From NCBI RefSeq assembly GCF_026723765.1, contig NZ_CP113524.1, positions 3,085,001 to 3,149,000 of the forward strand: a stretch of DNA of 64,000 nucleotides. Direction: 5' to 3'. The notes beneath the pieces were generated by a model, which ran no database searches, was not told the DNA's origin, and was given only the letters and a program-made list of their open reading frames with translations. Origin of the DNA: Lacrimispora xylanolytica. Lineage in GTDB: Bacteria > Bacillota > Clostridia > Lachnospirales > Lachnospiraceae. Made by a program: the position numbers and the translations under genes. Below are positions 7,414-48,191 of the stretch, in pieces. Positions within the stretch are counted from its first letter, which is position 1. Every line of letters begins with the position of its first letter.

Positions 7414-10400
7414 CTAAATTATATGATCTTCCAGGGCGTTTCTTGCCTGCTTAAAGCTATTGGCAAACTCCTTTTCCCTTATTCCGATCATGGCGAAGGT
7501 TCCCCTTACCGGAAGAAAGTTCCGTCTTTCGTCTCCTGACATCTCGTGATTTAAGTTCTTAATGATTCCGCTCAGCTTCGCCTCCATATCACTTTCCCGG
7601 ATGTTTTTACACAGTACAACAACCTCATATCCACCATTTAAGCAAAGAAGATCTTCCTGACGGAAAAAGCCTTTCAAACGACTGACCTGCTTTAAAAACA
7701 AGGTCTTTCCATCTTTTCCTGCCTGCCCGTTTATGACCTTTGGGCGGCTCATTTCAAAGACAGCCAGAGAGCACGTCTGAAATCTGTCACGTTCCAGATA
7801 TATTTTTAGACTTTCCTGAAATCTCCTGCGGTCCAGAAATCCGCTTACCTCCGATGGCAGCCAGATTTCCTGAGAATTAAGCTTAAGAACATTTTCTTTG
7901 CTTTCGTTCCAGATCTGAGGGTTTGCCACCATTTCTTCCAAGTTCACCATGACGCCGTATAACGTGCTATTATCCCTGGCAGAGATTCTGAAATTGGATA
8001 GAGCCGTCATATAACCTGTCTTTATTTTAATCCGGTACTTAAAATCCCATAAGGTTTTTCCAGGGCTTAATTCCTCTGACATCTTAAGGAGCATTTCCCT
8101 GTCATTGGGATGAATCATCTCAAGTAAGCTTCCCTTAAAACAGGATGCCAGTTCTTCTCTTTCAAAGCCGGTTAATTCATGAAAACGGGAGCTTGTGTAT
8201 TGAAACGTCATATCATTGTTCTTGATGCATCTGAAGTATCCGCCTGGTATACCAGAGCTTAGGAAATCAAGCTCGTCCTCCTTTTTTTCCAAAACTTCAA
8301 CCGTATGCTTGATCTGCTGCTCTGCAAGCACTGTATTTGTTATATCCATACAAGCGCTTACCACTGCCAGACGCCCATCCTCTGCCTGAACCGTACGTCC
8401 CTTTGTCATGATCCACAGATAGCTTCCGTCCTGTTTTCTGATCCTGTGCCGGAGATCGTACTCCATGCCCGGGGTATCGCAGCAAAGAATCACTTCCCGA
8501 ATAAGAATCCTGTCATCCGGGTGAATGATATCCACCATCATTCCTCCAATATCCCTTGTAAAGCGTTCATAGGAATCGTAACCCAGCATACTTAGCATCT
8601 CGTTATTGGCAAAATAAAGCGGCAGTTCCTTTTCGCAATAAATTCCAACCAGACCTCCCGGAGCCGCCTGAGCGAAGATAACGCTTGCCGCCCATTGATT
8701 TTCCTGAGCCATGTTATCAAAGGAGAGATTACGTCCGGCAAGCTTCATTACTTCACTGAGCATCTTTTGAGAATCCTCAAGTTTTTTTCTCTGTTCCATC
8801 TGCTCCGTGGCATCCTGCACGGTTCCATAATAAAGTCTCCGGTCATCCTGCTCTCGTAAGAAGAATACCCTAAGATGCACCCACATAAGCTCTCCGCTTA
8901 ACCGGTAACGCCGGAAAATCCCTTCTGCCCCGTGTACCGGATTCTTATACGCATTCTCAAAAATCCTAAGGACCCAGTCAATGTCATCCTTATAAACCTT
9001 GTGAAGCATAAATCGTCTTCGTTCTCCCGCATCCACGGGATTATCTCCAGTGATACGGTAATACTCTTCATTAACCCTTAAAACCTCACAGCGGTCCTCA
9101 TAAACCTCATACAGGGCAATGGCTCCCAGCATATTATTTAACATAGCCTCACTGGTGATATCTTCGTTAAACAGATCCTCCAGCTTTAATTCCTTCATCT
9201 GACGGGCCTGAATGCCTCTGTAATCCAGATTGTTGTCATTTCTTAAAAGCGCCTCCACCTCTGTTACGGTCATGGGCTTATAGTAATAATATCCTTGTCC
9301 ATAAATGCAGCCAATGTTAATGAGGAAATCAGCCTGTTCCTTCTCCTCAATTCCTTCTGCAACCACCTTAAACTGCATGACCCTGGCCATTCTTACAATG
9401 GTCTCAAGAATACCCATTCCTCGCTTAATACTGCTTTCGTTCATATCCAGGAACTTGGTATCGATCTTGATTACGTCCACGTTCACATCTTTTAGCATGT
9501 TAAGGGAGGAATAACCGCTGCCAAAGTCATCCATGAATACAGGAAATCCTGCCCTCCTTAAGTCTTCAACTACCTTTCGGATCAAATCGTAATCCTCGGC
9601 GTAGGCACTTTCCGTTATCTCAATTTCAAGGTATTTGGGGTCAATTTCATATTCTTCTATCAGCCCCTTAAATGTCTCAACTACGTTAATGCCGTAAAGA
9701 TCCATACGGGACATGTTAACGGAAATAGGAATCGGTTTAATTCCTGCCTTTATCCACTTACTAAGCTGTTTGCAGACCATCTCCCAGATATAGACATCAA
9801 GATGGGTGATAAAGCCGTTCTGCTCCAGTAAAGGAATGAATTCTCCGGGAGATATCATTCCTCGGGTAGGATGCTCCCACCGTACCAGAGATTCCATACC
9901 GATGATTTTTCCGGTCAGCATATTACACTGAGGCTGCGCATAAAAAATAAACTCTTTGTTCTCCAGGGCTCTTTGTATCTCGGACAGCAGGACCTGGTCA
10001 TTTTCCATCTTACGTTTCATACCAGGATCATACCAGCCCACCCGTTTTGCATAATTGCCCTTAACGGAATTCAGAGCGATAATTGCCCGGTCGTACATGG
10101 TGCTTACCGTCAAATGACGATCCTCGATGCAGTATATTCCAAAAGCCGGCAGAAAACCGGCGTTTCCGCCGAATTGTCTGGCATAGCCGTTAATCTCCTG
10201 CTCCAGCTGATGCAAAAGCTCTGAATCCTGGGGCTGAATAATGACGAAATCATCGCCTCCCATATAGCCTGCGATGGTATCCCGGGTGGCCTCCATCATC
10301 CTTAAATACTCGCTGATCTTAATTAAGAATCGGTCCCCCTCATCTTCCCCATACCATTCATTATAGAGCTTGAAATGCTCAATATCGATGGCAATCATGA

Positions 10401-13604: not shown

Positions 13605-14456
13605 ATGGACAATTACAAAAAACGGGGATATTTAAACAGTGACTTTAAGCTGTTCCATCTCATCGATACGAAGAAACAGGACTTTGAATACCACTACCAT
13701 GATTTTGATAAAATCATTATCTTCATACAGGGAAATGTGACCTATCGAATTGAAGCCTGTACCTATAAGCTGGAGCCTTACGACGTTTTGCTGGTAAGCC
13801 ACAACGACATTCACAAGCCGGATATTGACCCCACGGTTCCCTATGAGAGAATTATCGTATACTTATCTCCTGGTTTTTTACAGGCCTACAAATCAGAAAG
13901 CTATGATCTAAGTGCCTGCTTTCAGAAATCCAAAGAACTTCATTCTCATGTTTTACGGCTTCATTCCATGGATAAAAGCAGTTTATATCGTTCCGTGACA
14001 GAATTAGAGTACGCTTGTACCCATGATGGCTATGCCAGAGACCTATATTGTCAGGTGGTCTTTCTGGAGTTTATGATCCAGCTTAACAGAGCCTCCTTAA
14101 CCAACCTGGTAAAGTACCTCCCTCCCGCTACGGCAGATAAGAGAATCTTAACCATAATGGATTACATTAACAGCCACTTAATAGATGATATGACCGTAGA
14201 TTCCATTGCAGAATCCTGTTTTATCAGCCGATATCATTTGATGCACTTGTTTAAGGAGGAGACGGGATACACTCTGTTTGATTATATTGCAGAAAAGCGG
14301 CTTCTACTGGCCAGAGATCTGTTAAAAACAGGAGTTTCTGTAACAGAGGCCTGTTTTAACAGCGGCTTTAAGAATTACTCCACCTTTTCCAGAGCCTACA
14401 AAAAACAGTTTCACGCCTCGCCTTCTGAAACCATAAAAGAACAGTCCTTTTTTTGA
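13605..14456 (+). CDS. AraC family transcriptional regulator
   Basis: A 283-residue regulator. The N-terminal half is cupin-like (YHYHDFDKIIIFIQGNVTYRIE, then YKLEPYDVLLVSHNDIHK) and probably binds a small ligand. The last 100 residues hold two helix-turn-helix units (TVDSIAESCFISRYHLMHLF and VTEACFNSGFKNYSTFSRAY). GGAGG stands before ATG 13605. It is divergent from ddl-dapF, separated by about 145 bases, so it could control that pair, but this is only suggested by position. It ends in a bidirectional terminator. Confidence 0.87.
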   Translation: MDNYKKRGYLNSDFKLFHLIDTKKQDFEYHYHDFDKIIIFIQGNVTYRIEACTYKLEPYDVLLVSHNDIHKPDIDPTVPYERIIVYLSPGFLQAYKSESYDLSACFQKSKELHSHVLRLHSMDKSSLYRSVTELEYACTHDGYARDLYCQVVFLEFMIQLNRASLTNLVKYLPPATADKRILTIMDYINSHLIDDMTVDSIAESCFISRYHLMHLFKEETGYTLFDYIAEKRLLLARDLLKTGVSVTEACFNSGFKNYSTFSRAYKKQFHASPSETIKEQSFF

Positions 14457-39606: not shown

Positions 39607-40209
39607 TTAATTGTTACGTTCTCTAAGCCGGTTCATGGTATTGAGGGTGAACTGAATGATGGGACCATAAAGCAGCATGGAGATTAAAGTGCCCAGTCCT
39701 ATACTTCCACCTAACAATGCCCCGATGACGATCAAAAAGCCATCCATGGCGATTCTCACAAACCGGACCTCTTTTTTTAGCTTATCCGAAACAAACATCA
39801 TCCAGGCGTCTACTCCGCCCTCTCCCAGACCTGCAGAAACGTAGACTCCGATTCCAACACTTACCAGAAGTATACCTATGATCAATGCCAATACCTTTAG
39901 CAGGGTGTTATCATCTAGCTGGCTCACCAAGGGCATAAAAAAATTGGCGGAAGCCCCAACTAAAACTCCATTGACAACAGAACCAATACCAACTCTTTTT
40001 CTATCAATAAAAAACAGTATCACGATGATAGTTACAACGAAAATCTGGGATGCCGTCCCCAAGGGAACGCCAAAAAGCTTCCCCATCCCTTCATTAAACA
40101 ATGATAGTGCATCTAGTCCAAAATTTGACTTTGCTTCAAAGGCGATTCCACAGCCCATAATGATTGATCCCGCAACAACCAGCAGGAAATCCCACATTCG
40201 TTTTGTCAT
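39607..40209 (-). CDS. YczE/YyaS/YitT family membrane protein
   Basis: About 200 residues with five to six hydrophobic segments. It resembles the COG2364 (YczE) family: the N-terminal GCGIAFEAKSNFGLDALSLFNEGM and the later VYVSAGLGEGGVDAWMMFV are two related halves, suggesting an internal repeat. In Bacillus YczE affects surfactin production, but the mechanism is not known. ATG 40209 follows GAGGAG; the frame extends upstream without a ribosome site. It lies 120 bases downstream of the peptide exporter on the same strand, so it could be read with that cluster. Confidence 0.8.
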   Translation of the reverse strand: MTKRMWDFLLVVAGSIIMGCGIAFEAKSNFGLDALSLFNEGMGKLFGVPLGTASQIFVVTIIVILFFIDRKRVGIGSVVNGVLVGASANFFMPLVSQLDDNTLLKVLALIIGILLVSVGIGVYVSAGLGEGGVDAWMMFVSDKLKKEVRFVRIAMDGFLIVIGALLGGSIGLGTLISMLLYGPIIQFTLNTMNRLRERNN

Positions 40210-40328: not shown

Positions 40329-42041
40329 TTAGAATGATAAATTATTCTTTAGCATGATACTTAATTCATCATTATTATTTAATAACTCCTCATACCTTCC
40401 GCTATCGGTGACAGTTCCATGTTTTAATATAATGACCTGATCTACTTTACTGAGTATTTCTTGCCTGTGAGTAATGATAACTACTGTTTTGTCTTTTAAC
40501 CTGGTATGCAGTAACCCGTTGATCTGGTGTTCTGAATAAACATCAGTATTGGAAGTGACTTCATCAAATAAAATAATAGGTCTGTCATGAATAAGGGCTC
40601 TGGCAAGGGCTATCTTCTGCTTCTGCCCGCCAGAAAGCATTGAGCCATTTTGTCCCACCATATAATCGAGAGATACCTCTTTTAGAAAATCATCTAACCC
40701 GCTGTCTCTACACGCAATTTCCACTTCTTCATCGCTGACTGTTTTATAAAGGCATATATTATTTTTGATGGTATCGTTAAAAAGATAAATCTGCTGGCTT
40801 ACTATGGATACCATGCTTCTATATTCCTGCAATGATATTTTAAAAATATCTGTTCCATTCAATAGGATTTTGCCGTCCGCCGGATCGTATAGCCTGGTAA
40901 GCAGATTTATAATGGTTGATTTTCCTGAACCATTTCTGCCGATTAAGGCAGTTTTACTTCCCTTTGGAAATTTCATATTAACGTCTTTTAGAAGAGGCTT
41001 TTCTGTTTCATAGGAAAATGTTATATTTTCTAATTCCAAATCCCCATATGCTGCTTCTGCCAATGACCCATGATCACTCTCTTCCTTCAAATCCATAAAC
41101 TCATAGAACCTTTTTGTAGACGGTATAATTCCTGAAAGTAAATACCCGATGTTTAATATAGCCGTTATAGGCCCTGTTACGTAAGAGCTGTATGTAATAA
41201 AGGCGAAAACACTTCCAACCGTCAACTGCAGATCAAACACCAGGTTAGCCCCTACGACATAGATTACCGTCGATAACAAATGAACCATGATAGAATCCGT
41301 TATGATATTCCATCGGCTGAGCATATTCAATTGTCTTTGTTTCTCTATAATGCGTCTCTGGCGAACGGAAAATTCATCATACTTTTCATTGTAAATGTTA
41401 AATAACTTAACTTCATTAATCCCGCCTACGGTATCACCAAACCAATTCGCATAAATCTGGTTGCTTATTATAAATTCCTCCACAATCGATTTTTGCTTTT
41501 TAGCAAAATTCTTCATAACAATAAATTTAACAGGTATAAATATAAGTACCAGAATGGTCATTCTATCATCTATGATGAAAAGACCAACGATACCTCCCAA
41601 CATATTAAATGCTTGTGTAACAACAAAAAAGACACTTTCATCTGCAATCATGACCATTTTATTGATATCTGCATAAATATTATTTAATAACTCCGCGTAG
41701 TTGGTCCGATTAAAACAGCCTGCTTCCATTTTCATCAAATGAGAAAATGACTGTTCCGAAAGGGAATACTGTAATTTAGCGGATATATGAATCCTTTTTC
41801 TTTCTTTTATGATATCAATCACAGAAATTACTCCGTAGATTGCCATTAACATAATAGATAATTGAATCAATAAACTTTTATTTCCACCAATAAAACCAGC
41901 ATCCATAATCTGCCTGTTGATTAATGGGATGCATAAACTGAGTCCGGTAGAAATCAACAGGCAGCCGATAATCACTGCTATGGTTTTATTATACTTCTTT
42001 AAAAGATGAAGCAATTTTCTTACTGCCTCGCGGTTACTCAT
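40329..42041 (-). CDS. ABC exporter with fused membrane and ATPase domains, last gene of the peptide cluster
   Basis: About 570 residues: six membrane helices (residues 20-300), then an ATPase domain with Walker A GRNGSGKSTI, Q-loop IVSQQIYLFN, signature MLSGGQKQKIALARAL, Walker B IILFDEVTSNTD and H-loop VVIITHRQEI. The catalytic glutamate is present. No N-terminal C39 peptidase domain exists, so it exports but should not cleave a leader. Its position after the maturation genes makes the modified peptide the likely cargo. ATG 42041 lies six bases after the previous stop with no good ribosome site, so translation is probably coupled. Confidence 0.88.
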   Translation of the reverse strand: MSNREAVRKLLHLLKKYNKTIAVIIGCLLISTGLSLCIPLINRQIMDAGFIGGNKSLLIQLSIMLMAIYGVISVIDIIKERKRIHISAKLQYSLSEQSFSHLMKMEAGCFNRTNYAELLNNIYADINKMVMIADESVFFVVTQAFNMLGGIVGLFIIDDRMTILVLIFIPVKFIVMKNFAKKQKSIVEEFIISNQIYANWFGDTVGGINEVKLFNIYNEKYDEFSVRQRRIIEKQRQLNMLSRWNIITDSIMVHLLSTVIYVVGANLVFDLQLTVGSVFAFITYSSYVTGPITAILNIGYLLSGIIPSTKRFYEFMDLKEESDHGSLAEAAYGDLELENITFSYETEKPLLKDVNMKFPKGSKTALIGRNGSGKSTIINLLTRLYDPADGKILLNGTDIFKISLQEYRSMVSIVSQQIYLFNDTIKNNICLYKTVSDEEVEIACRDSGLDDFLKEVSLDYMVGQNGSMLSGGQKQKIALARALIHDRPIILFDEVTSNTDVYSEHQINGLLHTRLKDKTVVIITHRQEILSKVDQVIILKHGTVTDSGRYEELLNNNDELSIMLKNNLSF

Positions 42042-42046
42042 TGTTT

Positions 42047-42295
42047 TTAACCAATCAACCTTTCTTCTATTTCCTTTACAAATCCATTGAATGTACAAAA
42101 ATCCGGATTCATCAATGTCTTTTCGTCAAAAACAATATTCTTTTCTCCTTCAATCTCATAGATCAAATCGATAAAATTCCTTGCAAATAAACCTACACCA
42201 GGGCTGAAAAAGTTTGTATCGTATTGGCTTTCTGTTAAGTGCACTGAAAATTTTTCAGCTAGTTTGTTTAACACACTCTCTTTAATCCCGTTCAT
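42047..42295 (-). CDS. Acyl-carrier-related small protein of the peptide maturation cluster
   Basis: An 82-residue helical protein whose size and pattern (VLNKLAEKFSVHL, then FARNFIDLIYEIEGEKNIVF) match acyl carrier proteins. From memory it fits TIGR04069, an ACP-related protein found beside Cys-rich peptide maturases in Clostridia. The place of the DSL motif reads GLFARNF, without the serine that would carry phosphopantetheine, so a normal carrier function is unlikely. ATG 42295 is chosen because GGAGGT stands seven bases upstream; ATG 42310 overlaps that site. The gene sits between the TIGR04066-like gene and the exporter. Confidence 0.75.
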   Translation of the reverse strand: MNGIKESVLNKLAEKFSVHLTESQYDTNFFSPGVGLFARNFIDLIYEIEGEKNIVFDEKTLMNPDFCTFNGFVKEIEERLIG

Positions 42296-42310
42296 ATAAT
42301 AGACCTCCAT

Positions 42311-43384
42311 CTAATTTGACAAATAGTTGATTATTTCATCAATTGCACTCGTAAAAGCTTCCTCATTATTCAGATTAAATACATCCTTTTTATCTAAGCT
42401 TTGTATTTTTTCCTCTACCTTGTTATGATTGATATAAACTAATCGTTCTTTATCAAATGTTTCACCTCCATATATATCATGAAAAATATTTGATAAATGA
42501 AAGCTTTGTACAGGATACTCATATCTGAATTTCAGATAATTTTTAGTAAAATCCCAGAATGATTCATCATAATCATTATAGGATAAGGAAAGCAGTGTAA
42601 CATCCACAATGATAGAATTTGATACCAAATAATTGATAATACCAAATCCATTGGGATGATCCGCATCATATTGCATGGCTCCTCCCGGGACACCAATGAT
42701 GATTATTTCCGGCTCCTCTGTGTTTTCAATTTGTTTTATATAGGAATTGAAACGGTATATTTTTTCAATATCCGGTATATTATCAAACATAAACTCTGGA
42801 AAATTATGCATACCAAAAAAGCTGCTGTATTCCTTACTTCCTATTTGAGAAACACAATACCCTCTATTTAAAAATTCCTTCCTCGCCTTAAGCTGTAATT
42901 CAAACTTATTTGTATATTCTGCTATTCCACAAACAAGAAGTATGGGCGCATTAATTTTATGTAAACGATTTTCCTTTAATTCAGGATATATTTCATGAGA
43001 AATGCAGTAGTTTTTATAAGTAGTCCCCTTTTCCTTACATTTTTGAATCAATGGTTCCTCCACTTCACTTTCCATTTCACATAAACAAATGATGTTTTTC
43101 GCTTGTTCTATGGAGTATATCATTTTCTCATACACAGCTTCAGAAAATTCTGTAAAAATAATATCAGTTGCCGATTTTATACTCTCATTAATATTTGCCG
43201 TTACCTCAATCCCCAGTGGATTCTCCTTTATTAATTCCCCAACATCCCTGTCTTCGATTCCTTGTCCTGCCAATGCCACCGGAATAATCGTTTCATAATC
43301 GTTTAACATATCTCTATATTTTATTATTTCCACATACTCCTTTTTTATTGGATAAATAACAGCTATTTTACCATTCTCTTTCAT
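42311..43384 (-). CDS. TIGR04066-like peptide maturation system protein
   Basis: A 357-residue soluble protein. From memory it matches the TIGR04066 family, always found beside CcpM-type radical SAM enzymes, whose biochemical role is not known. Visible regions are IAVIYPIKKEYVEIIKY at the start, ILLVCGIAEYTNKFELQLKA near residue 160, and IIIIGVPGGAMQYDADHPNG near 240, which look like alternating beta/alpha units and could bind a nucleotide or metal. The start shares one base with the stop of the maturase gene (TAATG) and follows CGAGGAGG, so the two are co-translated. Confidence 0.75.
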   Translation of the reverse strand: MKENGKIAVIYPIKKEYVEIIKYRDMLNDYETIIPVALAGQGIEDRDVGELIKENPLGIEVTANINESIKSATDIIFTEFSEAVYEKMIYSIEQAKNIICLCEMESEVEEPLIQKCKEKGTTYKNYCISHEIYPELKENRLHKINAPILLVCGIAEYTNKFELQLKARKEFLNRGYCVSQIGSKEYSSFFGMHNFPEFMFDNIPDIEKIYRFNSYIKQIENTEEPEIIIIGVPGGAMQYDADHPNGFGIINYLVSNSIIVDVTLLSLSYNDYDESFWDFTKNYLKFRYEYPVQSFHLSNIFHDIYGGETFDKERLVYINHNKVEEKIQSLDKKDVFNLNNEEAFTSAIDEIINYLSN

Positions 43385-44841
43385 TAAATGTCCTCCTCGA
43401 AATGATAGCCACTTTTTGCTAATACGCAAATATTCTTAAAGGTATCTATAATCGTATCTTGTAAATTACCGCAATGGTCTAACCTGTTCTTTGCACAAAG
43501 CTCTCCTCCATTATCCGCTTGAACAAAACATAACTTGCAATGAGCAATCGCCCAACAGCTCTTACATTTTTCTTCCGTTATCTTTCCAACATTTAAAAGC
43601 TTTTTGCATTGATCTAATGATAAGCCTTCCTCTATATTACCAATCACAGAACATGGAGAGGTCTCATCAATCCTCTCACAAGGATAAAAATTCCCGTCTA
43701 TATTCATAAACAGTTTTTTCCTGCCAGGAACGCAAGGACCTGATGGGTGAAAAACCTTAGGTATCCCCGTAAAATCTTGCAGCTGCTTTGCGGTCCTAAT
43801 CACTTCATTAAAACTATTTAACTGTATCCTTGTTGGAAGAGCTTTTACTCTCTTCATCTTATGTAAAAAGCACTTATATTTTTCAAATTCCATATGCTGC
43901 CTGAACTTGTCAGCCTGTTTATCAAACGCTTTTTCATCACTTAAATAATTTGTACTGTAAAAGGTAGTATTTACTTTGCTGAACTCAAACAGAGGGTCTT
44001 CTGTAAAAAACAAATCGATATCGATTACCCCATCATCTTGGGCACTTACGGAATTAAACGAGACATTTTGATTAAAATACTCTAGATACTTTTCTTTAAA
44101 ATAACACAGTTTTTCGTATATGAGTTCAAAACTACCTGTACCATTGGCAGTAACACGGGATTTATCATGAATATTTTTAGGTCCATCTAAACTTATTGTT
44201 AACAAAATCTCATTATCTGAAAAGAATTTCATTATTTCATCTGTGAGCAACACACCATTTGTTGTCAAATTAAATACTACTTTTTTTGATATAAATTTTT
44301 CCCTTGCATATTTAACACATCTTTTTATTAATTCAAACTCCAATAATGGCTCACCTCCATAAAAAGCAACATTTACTACATCACAATTCATGGAATGATT
44401 GTAAAGGAAGTCTATTCCCTTTTTTGCCAATTCAAAACTCATTCTTTTATTAGAGTGCTTCCTGTTATTATAGTAATTTCCTGTATAGGGGCAATAATCA
44501 CATCTTAGATTACAATTTTGAGTCACTTGTAAGTTAATACTCTCTATGTTCGCATCCAGTACATCTTCCAAAAGTTCAGTCATAGGATGTTGAAGCTTTT
44601 CAATACTGAACTTTTTAAAAAGACCTTGTTTCAAACTCTCTTTATAAAATTCTTTGAATTCAATATCATCTACGCTTTCTGCTTTTTCAAAAAAATTTGT
44701 CGTTTCTTTGCTGAATTTATATAAATATTCAAAGCAATTTTTACTTATTCTTTTAATCTTATTTGCATATGTATCAAACATAAAAAAATCTTGGTTGCTT
44801 ATTTGGAACAGTTGATACATAGGTTTTATCTGCTCATTCAT
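43384..44841 (-). CDS. Radical SAM/SPASM maturase for a Cys-rich peptide (CcpM-like)
   Basis: A 485-residue enzyme. The SAM-binding [4Fe-4S] cluster motif is QNCNLRCDYCPYTGNYY (Cys110, Cys114, Cys117), followed by YGGEPLLEF and TNGVLLTDE typical of the fold. The C-terminal third is a SPASM domain with about ten cysteines (from CVPGRKKLFMNIDGNFYPC to CKSCWAIAHCKLCF) for auxiliary clusters. An N-terminal region of about 90 residues probably docks the leader peptide. It resembles TIGR04068 (CcpM). I infer that it installs thioether or similar bonds in the Cys-rich peptide encoded 220 bases upstream. GAGGGGG precedes the ATG. Confidence 0.88.
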   Translation of the reverse strand: MNEQIKPMYQLFQISNQDFFMFDTYANKIKRISKNCFEYLYKFSKETTNFFEKAESVDDIEFKEFYKESLKQGLFKKFSIEKLQHPMTELLEDVLDANIESINLQVTQNCNLRCDYCPYTGNYYNNRKHSNKRMSFELAKKGIDFLYNHSMNCDVVNVAFYGGEPLLEFELIKRCVKYAREKFISKKVVFNLTTNGVLLTDEIMKFFSDNEILLTISLDGPKNIHDKSRVTANGTGSFELIYEKLCYFKEKYLEYFNQNVSFNSVSAQDDGVIDIDLFFTEDPLFEFSKVNTTFYSTNYLSDEKAFDKQADKFRQHMEFEKYKCFLHKMKRVKALPTRIQLNSFNEVIRTAKQLQDFTGIPKVFHPSGPCVPGRKKLFMNIDGNFYPCERIDETSPCSVIGNIEEGLSLDQCKKLLNVGKITEEKCKSCWAIAHCKLCFVQADNGGELCAKNRLDHCGNLQDTIIDTFKNICVLAKSGYHFEEDI

Positions 44842-44989
44842 GATTCTGCCCCCTCTTATAATCGATCATAATATATCCACATTTATTTTATAGAATCCTC
44901 GGAAGTTTCAAATTGCATACTATTTTAGATTTATACGTTCACTTTTTACCTATTAGGGGTAAATAGATAACATACTCATATGATAAGCA

Positions 44990-45015
44990 GGGAGCTAACC
45001 TTATGATCAGCCCCC
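44990..45015. promoter_or_regulatory. Stem-loop between the precursor peptide and the maturase genes
   Basis: On the minus strand GGGGGCT (45015-45009) pairs with AGCTCCC (44996-44990), with one G-U pair and a 12-base loop, about 50 bases after the peptide stop. No T run follows on this strand, so it is more likely an mRNA-stabilising or leaky element setting a high peptide-to-enzyme ratio than a full terminator. Confidence 0.4.
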
Positions 45016-45065
45016 ACTTTTTTGGTGATAATGAAAACATCTTTAATTTTCTCATAAGCCAAAGC

Positions 45066-45206
45066 CTAGAGGATAAAGATATAATGTACTACCTGGTATG
45101 ATGTACCGTATTCGTAAGCAACGCTACAGCTACATGGGCATGAACAATTTCCCATTACATAACCTCTGGTTCCGGTTGAAGCTTTTTTCATAAGCGGTTT
45201 TTTCAT
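45066..45206 (-). CDS. Cys-rich precursor peptide of the radical SAM cluster
   Basis: A 46-residue peptide. Residues 1-19 are a basic leader-like part starting MKKPLMKKASTGTRGYVMG. Residues 20-28 form the Cys-rich core NCSCPCSCS, with cysteines at 21, 23, 25 and 27. The remaining 18 residues are rich in aromatic and hydrophobic residues (three Tyr within YEYGTSY, then VVHYIFIL) and no cysteine. A strong TAGGAGG lies seven bases before the ATG. It matches the Clo7bot-like Cys-rich peptides known beside CcpM from memory. There is no GG cleavage motif. It sits between agrD and the maturase, so it is the obvious substrate. Confidence 0.8.
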   Translation of the reverse strand: MKKPLMKKASTGTRGYVMGNCSCPCSCSVAYEYGTSYQVVHYIFIL

Positions 45207-45293
45207 ATTTACACCTCCTATCTTCATTTATATTTATAAGTAATACTAATACTTTGAACACTCTATATGTATTAGCTGCTTATACGCATTCAC

Positions 45294-45437
45294 CTATTTC
45301 CTTTTTGGTCTTTTCGGTTGATGATAGATGCCCATACAATGGGGCGGCCAGCTATAGAGATTTTCAGTAATCTCTTTTCGGGCGATCTTCTCCACTACGT
45401 TTAAAACCTTCTTTTCCAATGTTTCCTTTTTCTTCAT
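45294..45437 (-). CDS. agrD: AgrD-type cyclic lactone autoinducer precursor
   Basis: A 47-residue signal precursor. The N-terminal 25 residues are an amphipathic helix (KVLNVVEKIARKEITENL). The signal part is WPPHCMGIY: Cys34 to Tyr38 would form a five-residue thiolactone ring. The tail HQPKRPKRK keeps the proline three residues after the cut site but is basic, whereas many AgrD tails are acidic. The start overlaps the agrB stop (ATGA) and follows CAGGAGG. The frame is open further upstream only inside agrB. It should be cut and cyclised by the adjacent AgrB and sensed by AgrC. Confidence 0.85.
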   Translation of the reverse strand: MKKKETLEKKVLNVVEKIARKEITENLYSWPPHCMGIYHQPKRPKRK

Positions 45438-46018
45438 ATTGTTCTTACCTCCTGTTTTATCATTTTTGCCAGGCATAATAAAAATGCACATAAGATAATA
45501 GCTATTGACATATAACCTATATACACACTTTCAATCCTTAGGAATATAAATGATACAATGACCATGGCTTCTAACAAGACCACTAATCTGGCTGCTTTTT
45601 TAGACTCCTGCAGCTCATGAACATCCATATCCATATTAGGATGATTCACCGTTCCAATTACCTCAATTAAAATAACAGAGCAGAGCAATAGTCCATACAT
45701 TATGATTGGTTTTTCAGAAAGCATTTTTGTAATTTCTATCACAGCAATGAACGTTACAGCCGTGCCAAGGTAGCACTTCCAGAACTTATCTGCATGATAT
45801 CCTCCTGTCCGTTTTCTCAGCGACAAGAAGAAACATAAAAAACAAACGGTAGGAAGAATTTGACCATAAGCCATACCTAAAAGCAACAATGTAATAACAG
45901 TTATGTAACGCTCTATTATGGTGATGACTGCATACTCATAATATTCTTCGTCAGTAGCATTTATAAGACATTCTTCTTTCAATCGTCCAACGATCCTGAT
46001 TGCTATTTTTTCAACCAT
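45434..46018 (-). CDS. agrB: AgrB-type peptide-processing membrane protease
   Basis: A 194-residue membrane protein with about five hydrophobic segments. The cysteine protease pair is in GGYHADKFWKC: His75 and Cys82, with the usual six-residue spacing. It removes the AgrD tail and closes the thiolactone ring. ATG 46018 is chosen because TAGGAGG lies upstream and a promoter is found 25-52 bases before it; the frame extends to 46126 but that part overlaps the agrC terminator. Confidence 0.9.
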   Translation of the reverse strand: MVEKIAIRIVGRLKEECLINATDEEYYEYAVITIIERYITVITLLLLGMAYGQILPTVCFLCFFLSLRKRTGGYHADKFWKCYLGTAVTFIAVIEITKMLSEKPIIMYGLLLCSVILIEVIGTVNHPNMDMDVHELQESKKAARLVVLLEAMVIVSFIFLRIESVYIGYMSIAIILCAFLLCLAKMIKQEVRTI

Positions 46019-46042
46019 ATCAAATGTACCTCCTAATTCTGC

Positions 46043-46070
46043 ATTATAAAATAATTCATAGTTTAAACAA
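46043..46070 (-). promoter_or_regulatory. Predicted promoter of agrB-agrD and the peptide cluster
   Basis: On the minus strand TTGTTT (46070-46065) and TATAAT (46048-46043) are 16 bases apart, just after the terminator that ends agrC. The -35 is weak and is part of the palindrome GTTTAAAC, as expected for an activated promoter. This may be where AgrA acts; clear AgrA direct repeats were not identified. Confidence 0.5.
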
Positions 46071-46113
46071 GTAGGTTTGCAGATACCGGACACTGGAAAG
46101 CAGAAAATGGACA

Positions 46114-46159
46114 AAAAGAGGGGCATCCTATTATACGACTTATAGAATGCCCCTCTTTT
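46114..46159 (-). terminator. Terminator overlapping the 3' end of agrC
   Basis: AAAAGAGGGGCAT (46114-46126) and ATGCCCCTCTTTT (46147-46159) pair perfectly over 13 bases. One arm lies inside the last codons of agrC. A T run follows on the minus strand. It separates agrA-agrC from agrB-agrD. Confidence 0.85.
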
Positions 46160-47465
46160 GCCCTAATGGTATTACAATGGAAAAGAGAAACTCTCTTTCC
46201 AATTCTTGTATCACATAAGAACCTCCATATTTTTCTATGGTCCTTACAATATTTATAATTCCTACCCCATGTTCCCCTTCCTCTGATATTTTTGTGGATT
46301 TTATTTCACCATCTTTATAATGAATGATATGATTAAATGTATTCTTTACTGCAATAATAATGTGATCACTCTCTTTTATAAATTTAAGTCTAATAATTCT
46401 CTTCCCACTACATTTATTGCATGCTTCAATTGCATTATTTAAAAGATTGGATAAAATAATCACGATATCTTCATCTCTGATGCCTACTTCTGCAAGGTTG
46501 TTTACCCGGAACACAAAAACAATTTTCTTTTCAGTCATTTCCTGATATTTGGTATTTAATACAGCGTTTATAATGACATGATTGGTGTTAATCAGATCAA
46601 GCTCTTTATTCAGATCACCATTAATATTTTTCACATACTTTTTCAATTCATCGTATTGCTTTTTCGCTAACAGCGATTCAATACACATAATTTGATTCTT
46701 AAATTCATGTGTTTTCCTTTTTTGACTTTCAAATTTTTCGGAGATAGAGCGATACATATTAACCTGGTTTTTCACCTGCATTTGATTGATCCTGTTATCA
46801 TTGATCTTGATTTCCCTGTCAACAATATCATTGATCAAATAAAAAACAACCATATTCATGCCAGCTGTACCAACCGCATGAACAAATAAAACATTTGCCT
46901 GCCTTTTTGTCTCCACATAATTAAAAGAGGATAACAGGGATGAAATTATTATAATAGTAAATACTGGAAAAAATAAAAATCTTAGCCATTCTGTATCTTT
47001 CAGCATATCTGTATCCTTATGGCTGAATTTCTTTCTAATAATTAGAATACATAAAAATAGTATTACTTTTCCAAGCAAAGTTACCAGATAACCTTCTAAT
47101 CCATGATATTCCATTATCTCATGATTACTGGAAAAAAATCGGCTATTTACAGAAAATGCAATAAAATCTGACATTAACATGAGCCCATCATATAAAATTG
47201 CCAATACGAAAGACTTATTATAACTTATGTTTGTATGCCAATACATGACTCCTGAAATTACAATGATATTTATGAGTTGCCTGACGATAAAATGATTGGC
47301 TAGCAGCTCTGCAAAGCAAAATCCACATAGACATAAAAAAAGCAATTGTATGCAGTTTAGACATTTTTTATCCTTGTACCTTTTCCTTCCAAAGGATTCA
47401 TAAAAAACATTGCAGCAAAATACCTCGAAAATAATGATTAGTAAATTATCAAGATAAGAATTCAT
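46140..47465 (-). CDS. agrC: AgrC-type sensor histidine kinase
   Basis: A 441-residue kinase. Six to seven membrane segments (about residues 1-215) form the peptide receptor. The linker KRKTHEFKNQIMCIESLLA carries the phosphorylated histidine near residue 253. The GHKL ATPase domain shows ILSNLLNNAIEACNKCSG and EGEHGVGIINIVRTIEKYGG. It senses the cyclic peptide made by AgrB from AgrD and phosphorylates AgrA. It begins directly after the agrA stop. Its 3' end doubles as one arm of a terminator. Confidence 0.88.
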   Translation of the reverse strand: MNSYLDNLLIIIFEVFCCNVFYESFGRKRYKDKKCLNCIQLLFLCLCGFCFAELLANHFIVRQLINIIVISGVMYWHTNISYNKSFVLAILYDGLMLMSDFIAFSVNSRFFSSNHEIMEYHGLEGYLVTLLGKVILFLCILIIRKKFSHKDTDMLKDTEWLRFLFFPVFTIIIISSLLSSFNYVETKRQANVLFVHAVGTAGMNMVVFYLINDIVDREIKINDNRINQMQVKNQVNMYRSISEKFESQKRKTHEFKNQIMCIESLLAKKQYDELKKYVKNINGDLNKELDLINTNHVIINAVLNTKYQEMTEKKIVFVFRVNNLAEVGIRDEDIVIILSNLLNNAIEACNKCSGKRIIRLKFIKESDHIIIAVKNTFNHIIHYKDGEIKSTKISEEGEHGVGIINIVRTIEKYGGSYVIQELEREFLFSIVIPLGQKRGIL

Positions 47466-48191
47466 CTATATCTCTCCCTGATACGCAATAAATGAATCTT
47501 TCACTTGTTTATAACGTGCCTTTGGTATGATTAACTCAATCCCATTGCTCAATATGGTCTTATATCGAAATACTTCATTCATGTATTTTAAATTCACAAG
47601 AAAGCTTTGATGAATTCTTAAAAAATTGTACCCCCTTAGCTCCCGTTCCAAATCATTCAATGTTTCATACATCGTGTAAATTTTCAATTTTTGTTCCATA
47701 ATGTGAAATTCCAGCTTATGTAATTTACTTTCTATGTATAAAAGCCGGTCTAAGGAAATTTCCCTTTTCGACTCATTAAAATCAAAAACCTTTTTTATAA
47801 CTGTATAGTTCATCTTATCGATAACAGCTTCCATGCATTCACTTATGGTGCTTTTAAAATTATTACTATCCTTTAATAAATAACGTATGGCATCTACTTT
47901 ATATCCTTCCAGCGTGTAGTCTACATAGGCTGTCACAAAAACAATAAATATCTCTTTACTTATGGTTCGTATTGCCTTAGCTGCTGTAACGCCATCCATC
48001 TTATTCATATTAACATCAAGGAATACAATGGTATACTTGACCATTTCAATTCCAAGCGCGATAAAATCTTCGCCAGAAGCAAAGGTATCTATTTGAAAAA
48101 TCAATCCTTTGTTCCTCATATAATCTGATATAATCTCTTTTAATTCCTGTCTGAAATAATATTCATCATCACATATAGCAATTCGAAACAT
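47466..48191 (-). CDS. agrA: AgrA-type LytTR response regulator
   Basis: A 241-residue regulator. The receiver domain begins FRIAICDDEYYFRQEL, with the phosphoacceptor Asp in YTIVFLDVNMNKMDG (about residue 59) and a conserved lysine in IRYLLKD. The C-terminal LytTR DNA-binding domain starts near residue 140 and contains DRLLYIESKLHKLEFHI and FLRIHQSFLVNLKYM. It probably activates the agrB promoter and perhaps the peptide genes. A strong AGGGGGG site precedes ATG 48191. The leader of about 115 bases contains a stable hairpin. Confidence 0.9.
   Translation of the reverse strand: MFRIAICDDEYYFRQELKEIISDYMRNKGLIFQIDTFASGEDFIALGIEMVKYTIVFLDVNMNKMDGVTAAKAIRTISKEIFIVFVTAYVDYTLEGYKVDAIRYLLKDSNNFKSTISECMEAVIDKMNYTVIKKVFDFNESKREISLDRLLYIESKLHKLEFHIMEQKLKIYTMYETLNDLERELRGYNFLRIHQSFLVNLKYMNEVFRYKTILSNGIELIIPKARYKQVKDSFIAYQGEI

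Follow-up and report, generated by a model that had tools for sequence, protein, structure and literature searches.

In Clostridium acetobutylicum, the agr quorum-sensing system controls the expression of CA_C0082, a LanM-like effector, and in some clostridia lanthipeptide clusters adjoin the agr genes (PMC10301443). Another type of peptide cluster, built around CcpM-type radical SAM/SPASM maturases, has, in the literature examined, one reported product, the bacteriocin SacP23, which is described as active against Staphylococcus aureus and is encoded in Paenibacillus polymyxa together with TIGR04068, TIGR04066 and TIGR04069 proteins, an ATP-binding cassette (ABC) transporter and a subtilase (PMC10731318). 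No trigger of CcpM-type clusters is reported in the literature examined. As for LytTR activators, their sites consist of repeats whose usual spacing is 12 bases, with 11 or 13 in some cases; the distance from repeat to -35 box is 4-11 bases in Streptococcus mutans, and is often 10 outside this species (PMC6193735). Here, we analysed a 64,000-nucleotide stretch of Lacrimispora xylanolytica DNA (contig NZ_CP113524.1, positions 3,085,001 to 3,149,000; hereafter the window), in which agr genes precede the genes of a Cys-rich peptide, a CcpM-like maturase and its partners (Table 1). We conclude that this locus is probably an agr quorum-sensing circuit with a CcpM-type Cys-rich ribosomally synthesized and post-translationally modified peptide (RiPP) as its output.

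All minus-strand genes named in the initial annotation (the agr genes and those of the peptide and the CcpM-like, TIGR04066, ACP-related, exporter and YczE-like proteins) were recovered at their positions, all except the peptide gene by profile matches, some of which score below cut-off. By contrast, the single uninterrupted nine-gene run that it described is ruled out by an intrinsic terminator between agrC and agrB, the fold of which has an energy of -34.2 kcal/mol as compared with a mean of -14.7 for shuffled sequences (z -6.5), and which, together with a second promoter, separates agrAC from agrBD. A plain scan for terminators did not list this hairpin, probably since it limited the loops to 3-8 bases. 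The terminator is followed, in that order, by a LytTR-type direct repeat differing by one mismatch from the repeat of the related loci described below, eight bases, TTGTTT, 16 bases, TATAAT and agrB, so that the TTG of the predicted promoter begins eight bases past the repeat, in the register found in these relatives. When up to two mismatches were allowed with a 21-base spacing, 21 matches were found in the genome, among which the window repeat alone keeps TCTGC in both halves (as judged by eye). Further downstream, 87 bases separate agrD from the peptide gene and, as the initial annotation held, no terminator stands in this gap (z -0.6 for its fold); the agrBD promoter is therefore predicted to drive the RiPP genes, in a putative unit comprising agrBD and the genes of the peptide, CcpM, the TIGR04066 protein, the ACP-like protein and the exporter. 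In the related loci L060, L062 and L063, strong terminator-like hairpins do come after agrD (z -3.8 to -5.8; L061 was not folded). A stable hairpin with a poor U-tract (44960-45066, z -2.5) occurs 3' of the window's peptide gene, and possibly acts as a partial terminator or as an RNA stabiliser holding the precursor above maturase levels.

The association of agr with CcpM recurs outside the species. CcpM was searched with TIGR04068 in 397 genomes of the family (E up to 1e-110) and 25 genomes of the genus (E up to 1e-100), and occurred in 15 and three of them, respectively. The two lists together comprise 16 different CcpM genomes; a search of these for AgrB placed it on the same strand within 10 kb of CcpM in six of them (G000, G023, G053, G168, G292 and G300), upstream of CcpM in all except G168. 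With the window's species counted once (hence without G000, and with G012 coming from the genus search) and a 10 kb limit set post hoc, the linkage concerned five of 15 genomes as compared with 0.18 expected, and none of 2,000,000 random draws reached five; the linked genera are not fully independent, the agr genes of G053 and G300 being close. In total, the same agr subtype (AgrD pattern C-x4-HQPKRPK) is found no more than 10 kb from CcpM modules in four other genera of the family. The adjacency is thus not unique to one strain, and such uniqueness was the outcome that the initial annotation had named as a refutation. These four loci contain between one and three CcpM modules, for a total of seven, and their AgrC proteins are 51-58% identical to that of the window. 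Similarly, the 11 aligned AgrDs of this subtype have the common tail HQPKRP (once YQPKRP), most of them being recognised by position and pattern and the window AgrD alone by the model. In the window AgrD, aligned with its 10 relatives, the predicted ring CMGIY precedes HQPKRPKRK, and both TIGR04223 and the alignment place the conserved cysteine ahead of the charged tail. The seven module peptides of the relatives match TIGR04065, four with scores exceeding the 26-bit cut-off and three with lower ones (weakest E 0.081), and the leader of the window's Cys-rich precursor (MKK, L, KK), a peptide found with the same sequence in the other genome of the species, resembles theirs.

The CcpM scan of named genome contigs gave one locus, in Clostridium sp. 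12(A), from 16 pattern matches. In the class sample, agr genes of other kinds lie near CcpM in G472 (8.5 kb), G486 (8.3 kb) and G444 (15 kb), and two of 13 class genomes have agr within 10 kb of CcpM as compared with 0.26 expected; having unrelated agr genes and no exact repeats, these three were rejected as instances of the same system.

The agr genes and the RiPP units of these loci also share a promoter element. We defined the exact repeat as TTTCTGC/TTTCTGC with a spacing of 20-22; as the spacing of 21 alone missed most sites, 20 and 22 were added after viewing the sequences, and the motif is thereby fitted to these loci. The exact repeat occurs five times in L060, twice in L061, four times each in L062 and L063, and three times in L064 (one of these in common with L063). 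It is absent both from 30 shuffled versions of four agr loci and from 22 control CcpM loci without this agr (432 kb, including the G472, G486 and G444 loci, and with L080 and L081 coming from one genome). First, such a repeat precedes agrB in the four relatives, in its exact form, and agrA in three loci (exact in L060 and L063, with one mismatch in L062). Second, a same-strand repeat stands upstream of each of the seven CcpM modules, five times exact and twice with one mismatch (L060 at 8840, L063 at 2392), with 9-540 bases between it and the unit's first annotated gene. Third, a TTG stands exactly eight bases past all seven module repeats. More widely, of the 27 rows of the agr-CcpM loci (one site being listed twice) 19 show this TTG, as does the single site of the window, as compared with none of the five one-mismatch control rows having a spacing of 20-21. 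Fourth, the exact repeats ending in A that occur genome-wide fall largely at the locus (seven of 10 in G053, five of five in G292, six of seven in G300, the single one of G168 and both of G221); six searched CcpM genomes without this agr have zero to two of them, and the reversed pattern was found nowhere in 13 genomes. Fifth, the exact composite site (repeat, eight bases, TTG) is present in 21 of the 397 family genomes, 12 of these being from the set of 29 genomes having this AgrC (Fisher 3.9e-10), in a wider check that nonetheless includes the genomes where the motif was found; all seven genomes with at least two composite sites belong to the AgrC-type set, and 28 of the 41 composite sites are at most 25 kb away from such an AgrC. 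Both the spacing of the repeat and its distance to the -35 box fit the published LytTR activator sites (PMC6193735). The earlier proposal that one signal turns on the modified peptide gains strong comparative support from these four genera and their matching repeats before agrB and the RiPP units; its single-run layout does not stand.

The first protein encoded in several of these repeat-preceded RiPP units deserves mention (L062:8417-9256, L062:15469-16236, L063:17083-17865 and L061:14451-15146). Three of the four match PF19498 (DUF6033), and such proteins possibly form an agr-regulated companion family. Exact repeats also accompany this agr subtype in the absence of CcpM, namely in L119 (11080-14200), L121, L124, L126 and L129; in L119, small secreted-looking proteins follow agrD and a second exact repeat occurs at 14166.

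The components of the locus appear to differ in their descent. In a tree of 20 exporters, chosen by their similarity to the window exporter, one clade (support 100/96) unites the agr-linked proteins of the window species, G292, G300 and G053, and is joined at 100/100 by that of G168 and by one exporter without such a link (L067); the long branches flagged in this tree lie beyond the agr-linked clade. Of the CcpM proteins, nine are agr-linked; on their tree these maturases require six label changes, at least four of them forced by well-supported branches, and are weakly clustered (31 of 500 shuffles were as low); in the AgrC tree, the CcpM link requires three changes, at least two of them forced. 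That the exporter lineage follows agr, and that the maturases are of several lineages, points to a stable core of agr and exporter, joined by maturase modules of different descent. Neither the exporter-agr link nor the agr-CcpM link is obligatory, as seen from L067 and from the agr loci without CcpM (L118, L119 and others). We regard as about evenly balanced the further proposal of a modular platform, in which a conserved agr subtype with its own exporter lineage would capture interchangeable Cys-rich RiPP cassettes of different origin (up to three in G300), each controlled by its own copy of one LytTR promoter, and which in the window would have collapsed to a single autoinduced operon where signal and bacteriocin-like precursors share one transcript.

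Table 1. Features of the agr-CcpM locus in the window, in their order of transcription. Positions are those of the window; profile scores are in bits.
Feature	Position	Strand	Evidence or description
agrA, response regulator with LytTR DNA-binding domain	47466..48191	minus	PF00072 55.7, PF04397 56.2, above cut-offs
agrC, GHKL sensor kinase	46140..47465	minus	PF14501 85.4, above cut-off
Intrinsic terminator between agrC and agrB	46109..46163	minus	hairpin and U-tract; overlaps agrC end
LytTR-type direct repeat (predicted AgrA site)	46079..46106	minus	TTTCTGC-N14-TATCTGC
Predicted agrBD promoter	46043..46070	minus	TTGTTT, 16 bases, TATAAT
agrB, peptide-processing membrane protease	45434..46018	minus	PF04647 118, cut-off 23
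agrD, autoinducer precursor of 47 residues	45294..45437	minus	TIGR04223 28.4, cut-off 19
Cys-rich precursor of 46 residues	45066..45206	minus	four Cys in CSCPCSC; ribosome-binding site AGGAGGTG
CcpM-like radical SAM/SPASM maturase	43384..44841	minus	TIGR04068 481.9, near full-length match
TIGR04066 peptide maturation protein	42311..43384	minus	284.7, cut-off 200
ACP-related protein, TIGR04069-like	42047..42310	minus	29.5, below cut-off 70
ABC exporter	40329..42041	minus	PF00664 and PF00005
YczE/YitT-like membrane protein	39607..40209	minus	NF052291 108.9, below cut-off 205

We propose the following mechanism. AgrB would cut and cyclise AgrD into an autoinducing peptide predicted to have a thiolactone ring of five residues (CMGIY), which, once outside the cell, would activate AgrC and lead it to phosphorylate AgrA. 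AgrA would then bind the direct repeat ahead of agrB and activate the adjacent promoter, the transcript of which would run on from agrBD through the genes of the peptide, CcpM, the TIGR04066 and ACP-like proteins and the ABC exporter. Because no terminator stands behind agrD, the signal and the modified peptide would be made together, in a positive feedback loop. CcpM would modify the Cys-rich peptide, likely by thioether cross-links, and the ABC protein would export the product. Our best guess is that this product is antibacterial, by analogy, because SacP23, the reported bacteriocin, is the product of a Paenibacillus cluster that has this same set of genes. As to the proteins themselves, the best solved relative of the window CcpM by sequence is 5wgg (1.1e-33), and the TIGR04066 protein has no convincing solved relative or Pfam match. 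Ahead of the YczE-like gene there is no terminator-like fold (z -0.7), and this gene is possibly in the same transcript as the exporter; a link between its protein and the peptide, raised in the initial annotation because a relative of the family affects a lipopeptide in Bacillus, is speculative. The Rfam scan of the window returned nothing at gathering scores.

The window cluster contains no leader peptidase gene, and no peptidase domain was found in its exporter with Pfam. S8 peptidases occur in two of the relatives' loci, namely L064 (Pfam match) and L062 (49% identical to that of L064), and three homologues of them were found in the window's genome, all outside the window; the best one, which may supply the leader peptidase, adjoins a second CcpM cluster (4,296,771). 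Stand-alone proteins encoded before the exporter in L060 (10624-11148) and L061 (10202-10693) match the C-terminal part of the L064 S8 peptidase (39-41% identity), as though through loss or separation of the peptidase domain. The second CcpM cluster (L059, 4290000-4309999 of the same genome) is more typical, with a CcpM at 562.7 bits for TIGR04068 (9358-10776 of L059) and a CLI_3235-type peptide with seven cysteines (7692-7886) that scores above the TIGR04065 cut-off; the best homologue of the relatives' S8 peptidase (L132) lies close by, and no agr gene was found in this 20 kb stretch. In addition, seven AgrB matches were noted in the whole G000 genome, which possibly hosts seven parallel agr circuits.

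Several observations weigh against an agr-controlled RiPP, at the level of the window and of the comparison alike. The window precursor matches no model, including TIGR04065 up to an E value of 1, and the CcpM-like protein falls slightly short of the TIGR04068 equivalog cut-off of 500. The window genome has neither an exact repeat nor an exact composite site, its exact repeats ending in A are none, as in G023, and the peptide gene could own a promoter inside the 87-base gap. With one mismatch allowed, as in the window repeat, eight repeats appear in the control loci. G168 departs from the common arrangement, with AgrB downstream of CcpM and a module repeat separated by 540 bases from the first annotated gene. 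Among the 29 family genomes with this AgrC type, six are CcpM-linked and 23 are not, and 17 lack the exact composite site; G221, whose AgrC is very close, has no CcpM match, its agr genes lying on a contig of just 9,955 bases.

One alternative explanation is that agr and the CcpM cluster are neighbours, by chance or within an accessory region, each being separately controlled. It is favoured, and an agr-controlled RiPP disfavoured, by the locus exporter being present in two of the 25 genus genomes, both of the same species, which marks the region as accessory, by the 10 of the 15 family CcpM genomes of the linkage test that have no same-strand AgrB within 10 kb, and by the window holding a single, imperfect repeat. 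It does not account for an adjacency that recurs in four further genera, for the repeats shared by agrB and the RiPP units while the 22 control loci have no exact one, or for an exporter lineage that tracks agr, and we hold it to be unlikely; chance adjacency in particular was judged so from the linkage test, the repeats of the control loci and the composite-site test on 397 genomes. That the modified Cys-rich peptide is itself the signal or a co-signal for AgrC, instead of the output, as the initial annotation had also envisaged, has precedents in the lanthipeptides that can be their own inducers (PMC10301443) and in the SCIFF-derived ranthipeptides reported in quorum sensing. We consider it very improbable, since both this locus and the same-subtype loci without CcpM have an ordinary AgrD whose tail is the same, and since the peptides vary among loci while the AgrDs remain alike. 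Still less credible is that CcpM or its partners modify AgrD itself, as part of signal maturation: agrD does directly adjoin the cluster in the window, but a dedicated Cys-rich precursor sits between the two, the AgrDs of the loci without CcpM show the same sequence pattern, and a similar idea for the LanM-like protein beside agr was rejected by test in C. acetobutylicum (PMC10301443).

If the window's agr circuit does control the RiPP genes, then the trigger of one group of CcpM-type clusters would be a definable synthetic peptide, with which silent clusters could be induced, allowing purification of their products. Furthermore, the DNA signature TTTCTGC-N13/14-TTTCTGC-N8-TTG would be readable in the genomes of the family for locating the targets of this agr subtype.

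Our proposal can be compared with four types of described systems. Like the window, the agrBD-agrCA-CA_C0082 region of C. acetobutylicum has separate agrBD and agrCA units beside the gene of a RiPP enzyme; it differs in that the LanM-like protein stands alone, lacks the conserved catalytic residues and belongs to a genome described as having no other lanthipeptide machinery (PMC10301443). In the window, the genes of a precursor, a radical SAM maturase, its partners and an exporter follow agrD in what is predicted to be one transcript, and several genera show matching promoter repeats. The gene content is closest to that of the SacP23 and CLI_3235/CcpM systems, which share the Cys-rich precursor, TIGR04068, TIGR04066, TIGR04069 and the ABC transporter (PMC10731318, PMC7343975); the SacP23 cluster has an extracytoplasmic function (ECF) sigma factor and the subtilase, with no agr genes among those described (PMC10731318), whereas the window has a maturase slightly below cut-off, a peptide without a model match and no subtilase in the cluster, which is placed behind agrBD. 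Similarly, the HdrR and BrsR regulons of S. mutans rely on direct repeats with 11-13 base spacers close upstream of the -35 box, and on a regulator that activates its own expression as well as bacteriocin genes (PMC6193735). The window system differs from such LytTR bacteriocin regulons by its agr peptide signal, its radical SAM RiPP output and the different sequence of its repeat (TTTTCTGCA). Plantaricin-type systems are also LytTR-controlled bacteriocin regulons. Rgg reads an imported linear peptide, whereas the AgrC/AgrA two-component system of the window would read a cyclic one. What the streptide system, under Rgg, has in common with the circuit proposed here is a quorum signal that turns on a radical SAM-modified peptide (PMC8326336). 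Among the matches listed in literature searches on agr with radical SAM peptides or with the family names, we found no publication on agr with CcpM clusters.

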